Source: Blautia sp. | GTDB lineage: Bacteria > Bacillota > Clostridia > Lachnospirales > Lachnospiraceae | Direction: 5' to 3' | Length of the DNA stretch: 64,000 bases | Assembly: GCA_017463155.1 (NCBI GenBank) | Contig: JAFTPT010000027.1 | Coordinates: 62,001 to 126,000, forward strand | Part shown: positions 26,165-30,963 of the stretch, in pieces | Layout: each line of letters begins with the position of its first letter | Numbering within the stretch: the first letter of the stretch is position 1 | Position numbers and translations under genes: made by a program | The notes under the pieces: model-generated | What the model saw: only the letters and a program-made list of their open reading frames with translations | Database searches by the model: none | Told to the model about the DNA's origin: nothing

Positions 26165-26211
26165 TAAAAGTGGCGTACCGCAGCAACGTACAGAAAGGAA
26201 TCCGGACAGAG

Positions 26212-26658
26212 ATGGAAAAAGAAGTATTGATACATGTGCGGGGGCTTCAGATGCTGGATGAGGACGGCCGGCAGGAGCCGATCGAGATCGTCGTTCCGGG
26301 CCAGTATTATTTCCGGAACGGAAGCCATTATCTCCGGTACGAGGAGATCATGGATGAGACGGCGGAGCCGACCGTCAACTATGTCAAGCTGTCGGACAGC
26401 GGCATGGAGGTCCGCAAAAAAGGCCTGGTAAACGTGCACATGGTCTTTGAGCGTGGAAAAAAGAACACGGCCTTCTACACAACACCCTTCGGTACCGTTC
26501 AGATGGGGATCGCCGCGACAGGCCTTGAGGTGGAGGAATCCGAAGAGAACCTGGGGGTCCGGGTGAATTATTCACTGGACATGAACGACGAGTATGTGGC
26601 GGAGTGTTATCTGGAAATGCAGATCCAGCCCAAAACGGCCAGCGGATTCTCGCTGTAG
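26212..26658 (+). CDS. DUF1934 family calycin-like protein
   Basis: A 148-residue cytoplasmic protein with the DUF1934 pattern: a short N-terminal strand (EVLIHVRGLQ), YRYEEI-like and YVKLSDSGMEVRKKG segments, FERGKKNTAFYTTPFGTVQMGIAA, then VRVNYSLDMNDEYVAE. The predicted fold is a small beta-barrel of the calycin type. Function is not established. The ATG at 26212 is preceded by AGAAAGGA at a rather long distance, so a slightly different start is possible. It follows murI behind two hairpins, so it may be transcribed separately. Confidence 0.75.
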   Translation: MEKEVLIHVRGLQMLDEDGRQEPIEIVVPGQYYFRNGSHYLRYEEIMDETAEPTVNYVKLSDSGMEVRKKGLVNVHMVFERGKKNTAFYTTPFGTVQMGIAATGLEVEESEENLGVRVNYSLDMNDEYVAECYLEMQIQPKTASGFSL

Positions 26659-26667
26659 TGGAGCAGG

Positions 26668-26737
26668 GCAAGACAGGGGACGGTTCTGTGTCTTGTTTGA
26701 CAAAGCAAACAAGACACAGAACCGTCCCCTGTCTTGC
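26668..26737. repeat. REP-like palindrome, copy 4 (32-bp perfect stem)
   Basis: Positions 26668-26699 and 26706-26737 are perfect complements around ACAAAG. The arm includes CAGGGGACGGTTCTGTGTC. It is almost identical, loop included, to the copy at 30446-30513. It lies between the convergent DUF1934 and DUF4037 genes. Confidence 0.92.
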
Positions 26738-26747
26738 CCGTCTTGCT

Positions 26748-27689
26748 TTACACAGCCGCGAGGACATGCATATTCCGAAGGACCGCATCCTTCACATGGT
26801 CATTGACGGCGTAGGCGTGGGCTTCCAGCTCGCTGTCGGGAATGTTCGACAGGGACTGATCCGCAAGGTGGTCCGAGATCACGACGGCGATCTCCTCGAT
26901 CCGGGCGGCTTTGGCCGGACAAAGCTCCGGGCTGTTGTCCGTTGTGAGAAGCCAGGAGAGTGGTTCCGCGAGGTCAGAGAACTGCGGGAGAGCGCACAGC
27001 GCGCGGAACGTCCATTTGTAGTAGGGCTGGTAGGTGGAATTCAGAAGAAAGATGACGCTGATCGTGCTTTTCACGAATTCACAGACCGCCAGCTGGGCGG
27101 CGGCCGGTTCGTTGTGCCGGAGACACCGGGCGTAGTTGTACTGGCCGGCCTGCCCCATGAGCAGCAGATATCCGGCCAGCCTTTTGAGGCGGACATCCTC
27201 CGGGTAGTACCGAAGCGCCGCCCGGATGCGGGTCATGGCGCCTTCGTTGTCAAAAAAGATCTCGCCTTTGGTGGCTTCGAGGAGCGACTGCTCCGGGACG
27301 GTCAGCCACTGCTGCAGCGTCAGATCACCGTCCGGGGATCCGGTCTTTGCCATAAAGAATTCCTCCGTCCGGAGGACGCCGTGCCGGTTTCCGCCGACGG
27401 GGGAGAGGGCCGGCCGGGCAAAACCTTTGTACTCTTTGGGAAGCTTTGCGTAGGCCCGTTCCAGCTGAAAAGCACTTCGCCTGTCCACCACGTCTTCTCC
27501 GGGCAGAAAGAGGCAGAAGCCGGGTGCGAAATCATGGTCCTGTGAGATGTCGTCGTCGTAGCCGGAGCATTCCGACCCGCTGCCGATCAGGCCGGCAGCC
27601 AGATGAGGGAGCAGTTGGGGGAACTGTTCCTCCAGCATGGGTTTTCCGAATTCTTCAAAATAAGACCGGGAGAGTTCAAGTCCGTTCAT
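26748..27689 (-). CDS. DUF4037 nucleotidyltransferase-like protein
   Basis: A 313-residue protein whose N-terminal part contains GLIGSGSECSGYDDDISQDHDF (residues about 34-55), resembling the GS and DxD signature of the polymerase-beta nucleotidyltransferase fold, followed by a helical C-terminal half. DUF4037 proteins are found beside TPR or regulator genes, and their substrate is unknown. The start lies inside the end of the upstream TPR gene (14-bp overlap), so the two are translationally coupled. It could modify a small molecule or RNA; this is inference. Confidence 0.75.
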   Translation of the reverse strand: MNGLELSRSYFEEFGKPMLEEQFPQLLPHLAAGLIGSGSECSGYDDDISQDHDFAPGFCLFLPGEDVVDRRSAFQLERAYAKLPKEYKGFARPALSPVGGNRHGVLRTEEFFMAKTGSPDGDLTLQQWLTVPEQSLLEATKGEIFFDNEGAMTRIRAALRYYPEDVRLKRLAGYLLLMGQAGQYNYARCLRHNEPAAAQLAVCEFVKSTISVIFLLNSTYQPYYKWTFRALCALPQFSDLAEPLSWLLTTDNSPELCPAKAARIEEIAVVISDHLADQSLSNIPDSELEAHAYAVNDHVKDAVLRNMHVLAAV

Positions 27690-28437
27690 AGATTATCCTC
27701 GCTTCTTCCCGCAGCTCGGCTGCCACAGCAAACCAGCCATGGTAGGCAAAACCGGGCGCGCATTTTTCACATACAAAGGCGTAGTAGCCGTCCCGGGGAA
27801 TGGACGGGTCCTGCAGCAGTTCACAGGCGTGGTCCAGGAGCTCCTGAATCCGGGTTTCCGCCTCCTGCATGCCTTCCGACAGAGCGATCGCGTCCGCCAT
27901 ATTCAGGCAGGTGATGGCCTGCTCCGGGGCACTGCCGGGAAGGCCTTCAAGAAGCGTCATGGCTTTCTGGTACAGGTCCATGGCCTGCGGATACTGTCCG
28001 AGGTTCTGGAAGGCCAGCGCCATGTTGTTGTACAGCCCGCTCATCAGGTCCGGAGAAATGGCGGGATCCTTCTCGTAGATCACAAGCGCTTTCTCAAAAA
28101 GAGAGAGTGCTTTTTCATTTTCACCGAAAGCACTTAAGGCGGTCGCGGCGTTGATGTATGTGGTGCCGCCGGAGGGTGAGTCTTCGAGAGAAAGGGCCGA
28201 AAGGAGGGACAGGGCGTCATCAATGTAGGTGAAGGCTTCTTTACGAAGACCCGATTTGCGGCAGTGGCCGATCAGCTCGTTTAGGAGGGACAATTCGCCC
28301 TGCCGGTCTCCGGAGAGTCTCGCCTCCGACAGCCAGTAGGTGAGGAGCCGTCCGGCACCCTCATAGTCACGCCTGTCCATATAGGCATTCAGTTTTTCCA
28401 TGATCCGCGGGAGCGGGATCCGTGCGGTCGTCTGCAT
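27676..28437 (-). CDS. TPR-repeat protein coupled to the DUF4037 gene
   Basis: A 253-residue cytoplasmic helical-repeat protein. The repeats are clearest around TTYINAATALSAFGENEKALSLFEKAL and LYNNMALAFQNLGQYPQAMDLYQKAM (residues about 95-165). TPR arrays serve as protein-binding scaffolds. The ATG read from 28437 has AAGGA 11 nt upstream on the minus strand. A candidate promoter lies at 28497-28525. The overlap with DUF4037 suggests that the two products form a complex. Confidence 0.75.
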   Translation of the reverse strand: MQTTARIPLPRIMEKLNAYMDRRDYEGAGRLLTYWLSEARLSGDRQGELSLLNELIGHCRKSGLRKEAFTYIDDALSLLSALSLEDSPSGGTTYINAATALSAFGENEKALSLFEKALVIYEKDPAISPDLMSGLYNNMALAFQNLGQYPQAMDLYQKAMTLLEGLPGSAPEQAITCLNMADAIALSEGMQEAETRIQELLDHACELLQDPSIPRDGYYAFVCEKCAPGFAYHGWFAVAAELREEARIIYERT

Positions 28438-28579: not shown

Positions 28580-28609
28580 TTGCGCTATCATATAAAGAAA
28601 ATGTATAAT
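28580..28609 (+). promoter_or_regulatory. Promoter reading into the recombinase element
   Basis: TATAAT at 28604-28609 with TTGCGC at 28580-28585 (18-bp spacer). Transcription would begin near 28616, cross the left inverted repeat at 28659 and continue toward the recombinase. The promoter lies outside the segment bounded by the repeats, so inversion of that segment would uncouple it from the recombinase gene. The rest of 28438-28944 shows no gene. Confidence 0.5.
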
Positions 28610-28658: not shown

Positions 28659-28683
28659 CGTCGTAGAGTACCTTACTACACGA
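28659..28683 (+). repeat. Left 25-bp inverted repeat
   Basis: It contains GAGTACCTTACTACACGA at 28666-28683. It pairs with the right repeat in 24 of 25 positions; the only mismatch is at 28665. It lies about 50 bp downstream of a TATAAT box and 260 bp before the recombinase start. Confidence 0.85.
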
Positions 28684-28944
28684 ACGGACGACCCTGATAT
28701 CATCTTACCGAACCTGTCGAAATCTGTCAATTGCTCCGGAAAACAGACAGATGGGTTTCCTGGAAAACGCAATATTATATGTAAAATTCATCTGCTTCCA
28801 TGAAGGAGCAATGGTTTCGACTGAGCTGAAGAATGGCCTTACACTCCAATAAGCGTAAGATGTATGACGTCGTTGCATTGACATTTCATGACATTACCAG
28901 AAATCAGCCGTCATTTACTCGTCCTTTGGAAAGGAGATCTGACA

Positions 28945-30090
28945 ATGTCAAGAAAGGGAGAAAACATTTACAAGCGCAAGGACGGAAGGTGGGAGGGTCG
29001 TTTTGCCAAGGCCCGCCGTCCGGATGGGAGAATCCAGTACGGATATGTATATGCCGGGAGTTATCAGGCCGCCAGGCAAAAGCTCAAAGAGGCAGCTGCC
29101 TGTTATCATACCGGGAGAGCATCTTCGGCAGTCCTCAGCAGCGAAGAAAGCGCCCCGCTCGGCGGCATTCTCGAAAACTGGCTGCGCATACTCAAGCCGC
29201 AGATCAAGGAATCCACCTATAATAAATACCGGAACGCGATCCGCCTGTATATTGTACCGTTCTTTCAGGAACGATCCGTCTCTTCGATCAGGGATGCCGA
29301 TCTGGAAGAATTCTGTTTATACCTGCTGACAAAAGCCGGCAGCCGCAAGACAGGCTTATCGTCCAAATCAGCGGCCGATACCTTCTCGATCCTGCGGAAT
29401 GTCCTGGCTTTTGCAGAACGCAGCGGATTCCGGCTCCAATGCGGAACGCGGAGTGCGTTCATCCGTCGCGAGCCTGCAAGAATGCGGATCCTGAGCCACG
29501 AGGAGCAGCGCATCCTCTGCCGGTATCTTCGCAGCGAACCTGATCCCCGTAACCTGGGTATTCTTCTCAGTCTCTTTACGGGCCTTCGGATCGGAGAACT
29601 CTGCGCTCTTCGCTGGGGGGATCTTTCTCTGACGGAGCGGACCCTGCATGTACATGCAACCCTGCAGCGGATTCAGGAGACTGGTGAGACAGCCGGTCCC
29701 AAAACCAGGATCGTGATCTCATCCCCAAAGAGCCGGTCTTCGATCCGCAGCATCCCGATCCCTGAACCCGTCGCCCTGCTTCTTGCAGAGGCCGTATGCC
29801 GGGATGATGCATATGTGCTTACCGGCCTGGGGCATTATGTGGAACCGCGGAGCATGCAGCGGTATTTTCATACGGTCCTTCAAAAACTGGGAATCAAGGA
29901 GATGAACTTTCACGGGCTTCGGCATACCTTTGCCACCCGGTGTGTGGAGGCCGGGTTTGATGTCAAAAGCCTCAGCGAGATTCTGGGACATGCGGGAGTA
30001 ACCGTGACAATGAACCGGTACGTTCATCCGACTATGGAAATGAAGAGGAAAAACATGGAAAGACTCTCTGGCTTATTAGCCGTCAGCTGA
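28945..30090 (+). CDS. Tyrosine recombinase (phage integrase family)
   Basis: A 381-residue site-specific recombinase. Residues 1-60 are an arm-type DNA-binding region (GENIYKRKDGRWEGRF), 75-165 a SAM-like core-binding domain, and 190-370 the catalytic domain with Arg215 (GLRIGE), His323 and Arg326 (HGLRHTF), His349 (LGHAG) and the nucleophile Tyr359 (NRYVHP), so it should be active. GAAAGGAG precedes the ATG at 28945. It is the only gene between two 25-bp inverted repeats. No excisionase, replication or conjugation gene is present, which argues against a complete integrative element and for a DNA-inversion or relic role. Confidence 0.9.
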   Translation: MSRKGENIYKRKDGRWEGRFAKARRPDGRIQYGYVYAGSYQAARQKLKEAAACYHTGRASSAVLSSEESAPLGGILENWLRILKPQIKESTYNKYRNAIRLYIVPFFQERSVSSIRDADLEEFCLYLLTKAGSRKTGLSSKSAADTFSILRNVLAFAERSGFRLQCGTRSAFIRREPARMRILSHEEQRILCRYLRSEPDPRNLGILLSLFTGLRIGELCALRWGDLSLTERTLHVHATLQRIQETGETAGPKTRIVISSPKSRSSIRSIPIPEPVALLLAEAVCRDDAYVLTGLGHYVEPRSMQRYFHTVLQKLGIKEMNFHGLRHTFATRCVEAGFDVKSLSEILGHAGVTVTMNRYVHPTMEMKRKNMERLSGLLAVS

Positions 30091-30144
30091 GATCGTCAGA
30101 AGTATCCGAACAGCATCTGATTTCGGGAATTCATGGATGCATCC

Positions 30145-30169
30145 TCGTGTAGTAAGGTACTCAACGACG
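30145..30169 (-). repeat. Right 25-bp inverted repeat
   Basis: It contains TCGTGTAGTAAGGTACTC at 30145-30162, the reverse complement of the left copy apart from one base. It lies 55 bp after the recombinase stop and 52 bp before the Phd-like gene. Confidence 0.85.
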
Positions 30170-30428: not shown

Positions 30429-30513
30429 AAAGGGACGGTTCTCGACAAGACAGGGGACGGTTCTGTGTCTTGTTTGACAAAGCAAACAAGACACAGAACC
30501 GTCCCCTGTCTTG
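30429..30513. repeat. REP-like palindrome, copy 5, with a truncated extra half
   Basis: Perfect 31-bp arms at 30446-30476 and 30483-30513 flank ACAAAG. A further partial copy, AAGGGACGGTTCTC, precedes it at 30430-30443. The full hairpin is nearly identical to the one at 26668-26737. It lies between the antitoxin and the convergent membrane-protein gene. Confidence 0.92.
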
Positions 30514-30522
30514 CCTCGATCA

Positions 30523-30963
30523 TTATTTCCGGCGGAAGCGATCGAGGAATTTCTTTTTTTCCGGCGGACGCTCCAGGCTTCCGCGAAGTCCCTGGACGCC
30601 GACGATGTAGAGGCCGCTCACCTGTGCCTTGATCTCCTTCTTGACAGGGATCAGGTCGTAGACCTTTTCGTCCGCGATGAAGATCTGGATCCTGGGGCCG
30701 ACCTTGGCCTTGACGATCGGGAGCTTGGACCGGCGCATCAGCTTGGGTACCTGGTCGATCACCATCTGCGGAAGGCCTGATTCTTTGATCGGCATCCGTT
30801 TTTTGTCGATGACCAGCATGGATACGGTCTGTTTGGCGGCTTCGATCTGTGCCTGCTGTTCTTCCTGTTTCTTCTGCGTGCGCTTGCCCAGGATATAAAG
30901 GACGATCAGGGCAACAATCAGAACGGCCAGAATGACAAGAAGGACAATGGTTAGTGTATTCAT
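30523..30963 (-). CDS. Single-pass membrane protein, conserved hypothetical
   Basis: A 146-residue protein: a membrane helix at residues 4-26 (TIVLLVILAVLIVALIVLYI), a short Lys/Gln-rich coiled segment (KKQEEQQAQIEAAKQ), then a compact domain of about 85 residues with VSMLVIDKKRMPIKESGLP and IFIADEKVYDLIPVKKEIKAQVSGLYI, ending in a basic tail. The start at 30963 is supported by AGGAGG on the minus strand. The soluble domain is probably cytoplasmic. I do not recognise a named family. Confidence 0.65.
   Translation of the reverse strand: MNTLTIVLLVILAVLIVALIVLYILGKRTQKKQEEQQAQIEAAKQTVSMLVIDKKRMPIKESGLPQMVIDQVPKLMRRSKLPIVKAKVGPRIQIFIADEKVYDLIPVKKEIKAQVSGLYIVGVQGLRGSLERPPEKKKFLDRFRRK

Follow-up and report, generated by a model that had tools for sequence, protein, structure and literature searches.

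A 1.5-kb segment in Blautia sp. that probably forms a self-contained invertible-promoter switch with its own tyrosine recombinase

In the flagellar phase variation of Salmonella, the H segment carries a promoter that drives the neighbouring gene in one orientation only, and the segment is inverted by Hin, a serine recombinase that acts at hix sites with a recombinational enhancer bound by Fis. In the fim switch of E. coli and the RecV switches of C. difficile, the recombinase gene is located outside the inverted DNA. In the literature, FimB is termed a tyrosine integrase, and both FimB and RecV invert promoter-bearing or regulatory segments. Hin is given in PMC5903667 as a named example of a recombinase gene lying within the segment that its product inverts, and a flagellin promoter inverton is mentioned in PMC13418256. 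The passages of the latter paper on gut Clostridia place hin upstream of csrA-tldR loci, where promoter inversion takes place beside TnpB-derived regulators, as it would beside the TnpB-like genes of some relatives of our locus; the csrA-tldR loci differ in having a serine Hin, inversions of ~120 bp downstream of hin and flagellin targets (PMC13418256). In a survey of a defined gut community, the hCom2 inverton group 139 from Clostridia was statistically tied to the tyrosine-type recombinase/integrase group 35, and the portion of the survey dealing with these groups puts the group-35 gene family among the non-regulatable genes near group 139, i.e., in the class that does not intersect the inverton (PMC11892184). 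A literature search for this kind of switch, the scope of which excluded most subscription journals, gave no description of the cassette considered here.

The window, i.e., the whole analysed stretch of 64,000 nucleotides from Blautia sp. (GCA_017463155.1, contig JAFTPT010000027.1, positions 62,001 to 126,000), contains a 1.5-kb segment that, in our opinion, is very probably a self-contained invertible-promoter switch with its own recombinase (Table 1). The parts of the segment, their conservation in relatives and the opposite orientations at orthologous loci of these relatives are read directly from the sequences, and from them we infer the activity of the promoter, the action of the enzyme on the sites, flipping in this genome and the neighbour that is targeted. 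As in the Hin system, the segment encloses the gene of its recombinase; unlike Hin, the enzyme is a tyrosine recombinase (PF00589), and the promoter is divergent from the recombinase and located 5' of the recombinase gene. The switch is most likely Hin-like in logic and tyrosine-family in enzyme. With the FimB/fimS and RecV systems it would share the inversion of a promoter-bearing or regulatory segment by a recombinase, but here the recombinase gene is enclosed in that segment. The same feature distinguishes it from group 139, near which the recombinase genes do not intersect the inverton; as this comparison is by description, the two families may still overlap.

Table 1. Features of the cassette and of its surroundings; positions are counted from the first letter of the window
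Feature	Position	Strand	Remarks
Left inverted repeat, putative left recombinase core site	28659..28683	+	palindromic arms, central ACCTT
Right inverted repeat, putative right core site	30145..30169	-	one arm mismatch, identical centre
Tyrosine recombinase, 381 aa	28945..30090	+	PF00589; R215, H323, R326, H349, Y359
Outward sigma-A promoter (predicted), TTGACA-17-TAAGAT	28702..28730	-	inside the segment, reads left through the left arm
Promoter-like motif, TTGCGC-18-TATAAT	28580..28609	+	outside the left arm; as the segment now lies, could transcribe the recombinase; 0/30 shuffles score better
Phd/YefM-like antitoxin-type gene, 65 aa	30221..30418	+	51 bp past the right arm; candidate target
TPR protein	27676..28437	-	nearest gene on the left, 221 bp away from the arm; candidate target
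DUF4037 protein	26748..27689	-	second gene in the left operon; profile match
REP-like palindrome, 70 bp	26669..26738	.	left edge of the block
REP-like palindrome, 70 bp, identical to the former	30446..30515	.	right edge of the block
Conserved gene	30523..30963	-	adjoins the block on the right; match in 59/64 genus genomes searched (own genome included)
DUF1934 gene	26170..26658	+	adjoins the block on the left; neighbours the 30523..30963 gene in relatives (empty site)

According to the mechanism proposed here, the recombinase would act on the two inverted core sites at the ends of the segment and flip the segment holding its own gene. The outward promoter, divergent from the recombinase, would travel with the segment and be aimed at either flank: in the present orientation it would read left towards the TPR-DUF4037 genes (ON), and after inversion it would be directed rightwards at the Phd-like gene, which would now be OFF. 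The recombinase itself is probably made at a low level, by read-through or from the motif outside the left arm, because no consensus forward promoter was found in the cassette.

A first-pass annotation of this DNA had described the repeats, their orientation and the genes around them, and this description proved to be correct. The repeats are inverted and match in 24 of 25 positions, the recombinase with all its five catalytic residues is the sole plausible complete gene between them among the mechanical ORFs, and the TPR and DUF4037 genes do lie on the minus strand to the left. The antitoxin gene on the right was rightly called an orphan, since no toxin-like gene precedes the next conserved gene; its product scores above the cut-off for TIGR01552 and just below that for PF02604. 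The outward promoter and the comparison with loci where the block is missing were both absent from that annotation. Scanning the left operon with PADLOC gave a weak TPR match only. In the whole genome, the 14-base core of the repeats occurs without mismatches only in the two arms, and further matches with 2 mismatches were no more frequent than in the control. This restriction of the core, together with the recurrence of the geometry in relatives, indicates that the arrangement of repeats and gene is more than chance.

The recombinase matches PF00589 with 83.6 bits (cut-off 27.1, E=1.8e-23) and satisfies the R, H-x-x-R, H, Y signature of tyrosine recombinases. It falls below the curated equivalog cut-offs for XerC (77.5 against 335.15 bits), XerD (63.1 against 329.6) and archaeal XerA (90.1 against 220). 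Its relatives were found in at least 32 of 298 genomes (E <= 1e-75, with the best six candidates per genome scored), and one genome of the same family, G160, holds four of them, 46–49% identical to that of the window. The first set of loci, collected from congeneric genomes and other genome contigs, comprised 108 loci including the window's own; L046 and L057, which duplicate L016 and L017, were discarded manually. Of the 108 loci, 13 were too near contig ends and were left out, giving 95 loci eligible for the repeat count. For the second set, 36 places were listed (one of them the window) and 29 loci were fetched, 10 of which overlapped with the first set. Six relatives whose recombinase match is interrupted by a stop (L025, L035, L038, L058, L078 and L083) were retained unchanged.

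A pair of inverted repeats flanking the gene, its arms placed before the start and behind the stop (score threshold >= 15), was found in 74 of the 95 eligible loci, the window included, and in 46 of 1900 arm-swapped controls, where upstream regions were paired with downstream regions of other loci. Direct repeats of the same score occur in 4/95 loci only, and 21/95 relatives are without paired repeats. The count of 74, like the promoter scans with 30 shuffles, treats six near-identical loci separately; after removal of near-identical genes, with slightly looser length limits, the paired sites amount to 71/94. In the second set their share was lower (11/19). The consensus of the arms across the family, TTTCGTAGAGT-5-ACTCTACGAAA, is a palindromic core, and its size is about that known for tyrosine recombinases. 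Among 80 distinct loci, 5 without a clear palindromic centre were left out, and the central 5 bases were identical between both arms in 75/75 remaining pairs. These centres exist in 52 distinct versions and coincide between different loci in 92 of 5550 comparisons (1.7%). Mismatches between arms are situated mostly in the outer parts and hardly ever in the middle, a profile somewhat biased by the 9-base exact seed used to find the arms, which favours a perfectly matched stretch. Since the centres are locus-specific yet matched within pairs, as strand exchange requires, the two inverted repeats are most likely the recombinase's own sites.

A near-consensus sigma-A promoter directed outwards was detected between the left arm and the recombinase start in 62 of 69 distinct loci (de-duplicated), against 3.4 expected, the criterion being that at most 1 of 40 true dinucleotide shuffles was as good. 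Near-identical genes were dropped, L094 and L103 (repeats > 60 bp) were excluded from the promoter counts, and the base frequencies used for scoring were preset rather than fitted. In the second, non-overlapping set, outward promoters were present in 9/11 loci and forward ones in 1/11. Relatives without paired arms have an outward promoter in 3/21 cases (at most 1 of 30 simpler shuffles), and that of locus L051 is weak (8.0 bits). A consensus scan of the window region gave two promoter-like sites including the outward one, while shuffles yield 1.8, so the outward promoter of the window alone is little proof, and it is its position in the family that carries weight. This conserved promoter lies inside the cassette, is divergent from the recombinase and points out of the cassette, which suggests that flipping mainly redirects the transcription of neighbours.

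The first-pass annotation had supposed instead that the promoter outside the left repeat transcribes the recombinase and that inversion turns the recombinase off, effects on neighbours being secondary. The motif on which this idea was built is indeed present in the window, where 0/30 shuffles surpass it, and little in the family points to a forward promoter within the cassette (7/69, none at 13 bits or more). Such promoters outside the left arm are, however, only weakly enriched in relatives (10/69 with 3.4 expected, and 0/11 in the second set), and the outward promoter would stay unexplained. Self-shut-off of the recombinase is not a family trait, and as an explanation of the window's cassette we regard it as unlikely.

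The switch reading draws further on relatives in which the cassette has opposite orientations. In G009 and G017, congeneric genomes with a stated completeness of 100%, a 1.45-kb cassette is inverted between collinear flanks of 4243 bp (97.4% identity) on one side and 1195 bp (96.9%) on the other; the segment between them, 1447 bp long, aligns on the opposite strand with 91.6% identity. The breakpoints are in the 26-bp arms, as the alignments overlap by exactly one arm at one end and the other end falls within the arm; the two genomes also differ by ~150 bp in the length of the stretch beside one arm. In G062 and G024, the cassette is inverted with one flank common to both, and L051 and L061 have the same operon at opposite cassette ends, again with one common flank. 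Both in G009/G017 and in G062/G024, the promoter is aimed at a gene located 31–42 bp from an arm in only one of the two genomes, and these pairs are, judging from the placement of the predicted promoter, natural ON and OFF forms. L029 and L041 are a partial case, being inverted relative to each other although L029 is without paired arms. L204, from a viral contig, was considered as a further inversion relative to L045–L050, the class closest to the window, and was not counted because it has no paired arms. In 10 of 13 locus pairs compared the orientation was the same, and several of these pairs share little or no flank. All inverted pairs are relatives, their recombinases being 38–39% (G009/G017 and G062/G024) or 45–48% (L051/L061) identical to that of the window. 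The earlier proposal of a self-inverting switch is well supported by the comparison, owing to the matched variable centres and to orthologues in both orientations, while the assembly of the window's own genome contains one full copy of the cassette in a single orientation and no inverted copy. Both orientations were observed at loci of relatives that are orthologous to each other, none of them being an orthologue of the window's locus.

It is also conceivable, though quite improbable, that the segment is a former switch whose flipping ceased in this lineage, leaving the promoter constitutive for TPR-DUF4037. The arm mismatch, the single orientation seen and the lack of the block at the congeneric loci examined would agree with such a fixed state; against it, the recombinase is intact with five catalytic residues, and the centres of both sites are identical.

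Still less probable, with a very slight likelihood, is that the enzyme is an integrase of an integrated element (ICE, IME or prophage) and that the repeats are att-like remnants. The best-matching solved structures for the recombinase are those of the Int protein in entries 6emy/6en0, which we take to be the Tn1549 integrase; relatives occur on viral contigs and in phage-labelled records, and more distant ones on plasmids; and near-identical copies are included in a larger common region in several genera (L045–L050). But att sites would be direct repeats, whereas the repeats of the window are inverted, and direct repeats of that score occur only in the 4/95 loci mentioned above. Moreover, no transfer or phage protein is among the five neighbouring proteins that were scanned, and orthologues are inverted in place. 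L045–L050 and L213 have a near-identical cassette and appear to be one recently spread mobile element: the stretch common to L045–L050, at least 5.5 kb long, is found in records named Butyricicoccus, Blautia, Agathobaculum, Negativibacillus, Eisenbergiella and Brotaphodocola, and 4.5 kb of it is present in the phage-labelled scaffold L213.

The surroundings of the switch candidate were compared with 19 congeneric loci fetched from among 58 other genomes having the bordering core gene. At 18/19 of them, the whole DUF4037-TPR-recombinase-Phd block (~3.8 kb) is missing, and the DUF1934 gene and the conserved gene on the right are adjacent, with 27–344 bp between the matched regions; the nineteenth, L135, has no DUF1934 gene there and is uninformative. 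The 70-bp palindromes bordering the block have perfect 31–34-bp stems and 81 matches in the genome with both strands counted, most copies being matched on both strands as palindromes are; some matches are near contig ends. Two congeners, G059 and G054, possess relatives of the TPR-DUF4037 genes (~52–62% identity), and the stretches fetched from them contain no recombinase. Because the whole block is missing and has REP-like borders, the cassette probably arrived with, or next to, the DUF4037, TPR and Phd genes rather than inserting by itself. An insertion-sequence-like transposon ending in the inverted repeats is the reading we find least credible: terminal inverted repeats around a single recombinase gene and empty sites in congeners would suit it, but the missing unit is 3.8 kb with other genes and REP-like borders and not 1.5 kb, the genome has one full copy (which by itself does not exclude an insertion sequence) and a nearest paralogue, 37% identical, without paired repeats, the centres differ from locus to locus but agree within each pair, and orthologous cassettes are inverted in situ.

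If the segment is an invertible promoter, its target may be sought on either side. The better part of the earlier idea was the suggestion that orientation could govern whether the neighbours are expressed. Among 80 distinct loci, the right-hand ORF is co-directional with the recombinase in 65, opposed in 12 and missing in 3, and in 42 of these 65 its start is at most 150 bp away from the arm; left neighbours have no strand bias (41 versus 34, with 5 loci having no neighbour). These counts are based on mechanical ORFs of at least 100 aa with near-identical genes dropped, so that the 65-aa Phd-like gene of the window fell below the length limit and a spurious antisense ORF was scored in its place. 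By the rule for right-hand neighbours in the family, the target in the window would be the Phd-like gene, now OFF. The outward promoter in its present orientation faces TPR-DUF4037; the distance of the TPR gene from the arm is greater than that of most right-hand neighbours, and a promoter-like motif just upstream of this gene (8 of 12 positions, noted by eye) could drive it instead. The TPR-DUF4037 operon and the Phd-like gene may both be outputs. Among the loci fetched up to that comparison, no Phd-like homologues were found beside other cassettes. In PMC3710099, DUF4037 is listed with aminoglycoside-nucleotidyltransferase C-termini and is said to be fused occasionally to TPRs.

Phase-variable genes are usually found through inverted reads. 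Here, a signature in the sequence of a single genome marks the switch: a recombinase start, a divergent TTGACA/TATAAT promoter and arms with matched locus-specific centres would together tell which enzyme is involved, where its sites probably lie and which side is regulated. Such switches could then be tested directly in Clostridia that are poorly cultured, and, as each recombinase is paired with its own site, nature would offer a large collection of compact recombinase/site pairs. It is possible, although doubtful at present, that a large family of portable phase-variation cassettes (recombinase, sites and outward promoter) is placed upstream of unrelated operons in Clostridia and also makes RNA-guided repressors phase-variable. 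UpxY and UpxZ impose one-locus-at-a-time expression in Bacteroides; if the suggestion is true, cassettes beside TnpB-like genes could do the same. The window would be an added case with two possible outputs, the TPR/DUF4037 operon and the lone Phd-like gene.

Genes situated beside the cassettes of relatives, taken as mechanical ORFs, were grouped by protein similarity, and in 16 loci a TnpB-like gene was found beside or near an arm. Family F8 is present in 6 loci (L040:2775-4034 (+) with L026, L027, L030, L031 and L041) and family F3 in L088:1236-2678 (+) with 9 other loci; the scanned representatives of both contain PF07282. Among the full-length members that were aligned, the zinc ribbon is retained, while the three presumed acidic positions of RuvC look replaced by eye, and these genes look TldR-like and nuclease-dead. 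The G009/G017 pair of ON and OFF forms concerns a TnpB-like gene that heads a probable polysaccharide operon. The F8 genes are followed by a partly conserved, folding non-coding stretch resembling a TnpB guide-RNA scaffold (L194:2582-2910 (-), L195:3075-3407 (-), L197 after 5577, L198 before 3349), and a guide-RNA target was not found within the few fetched stretches. In L017, L018, L089 and L112, a gene of family F9 is located next to the cassette; its representative in L112 is NusG-like (PF02357), which brings to mind the UpxY proteins encoded at the invertible polysaccharide loci of Bacteroides. Particularly long inverted repeats were observed in L094 and L103 (466 and 105 bp), and on both sides the repeat of L094 takes in the start of the TnpB-like gene, which looks as though inversion might exchange the ends of this gene.
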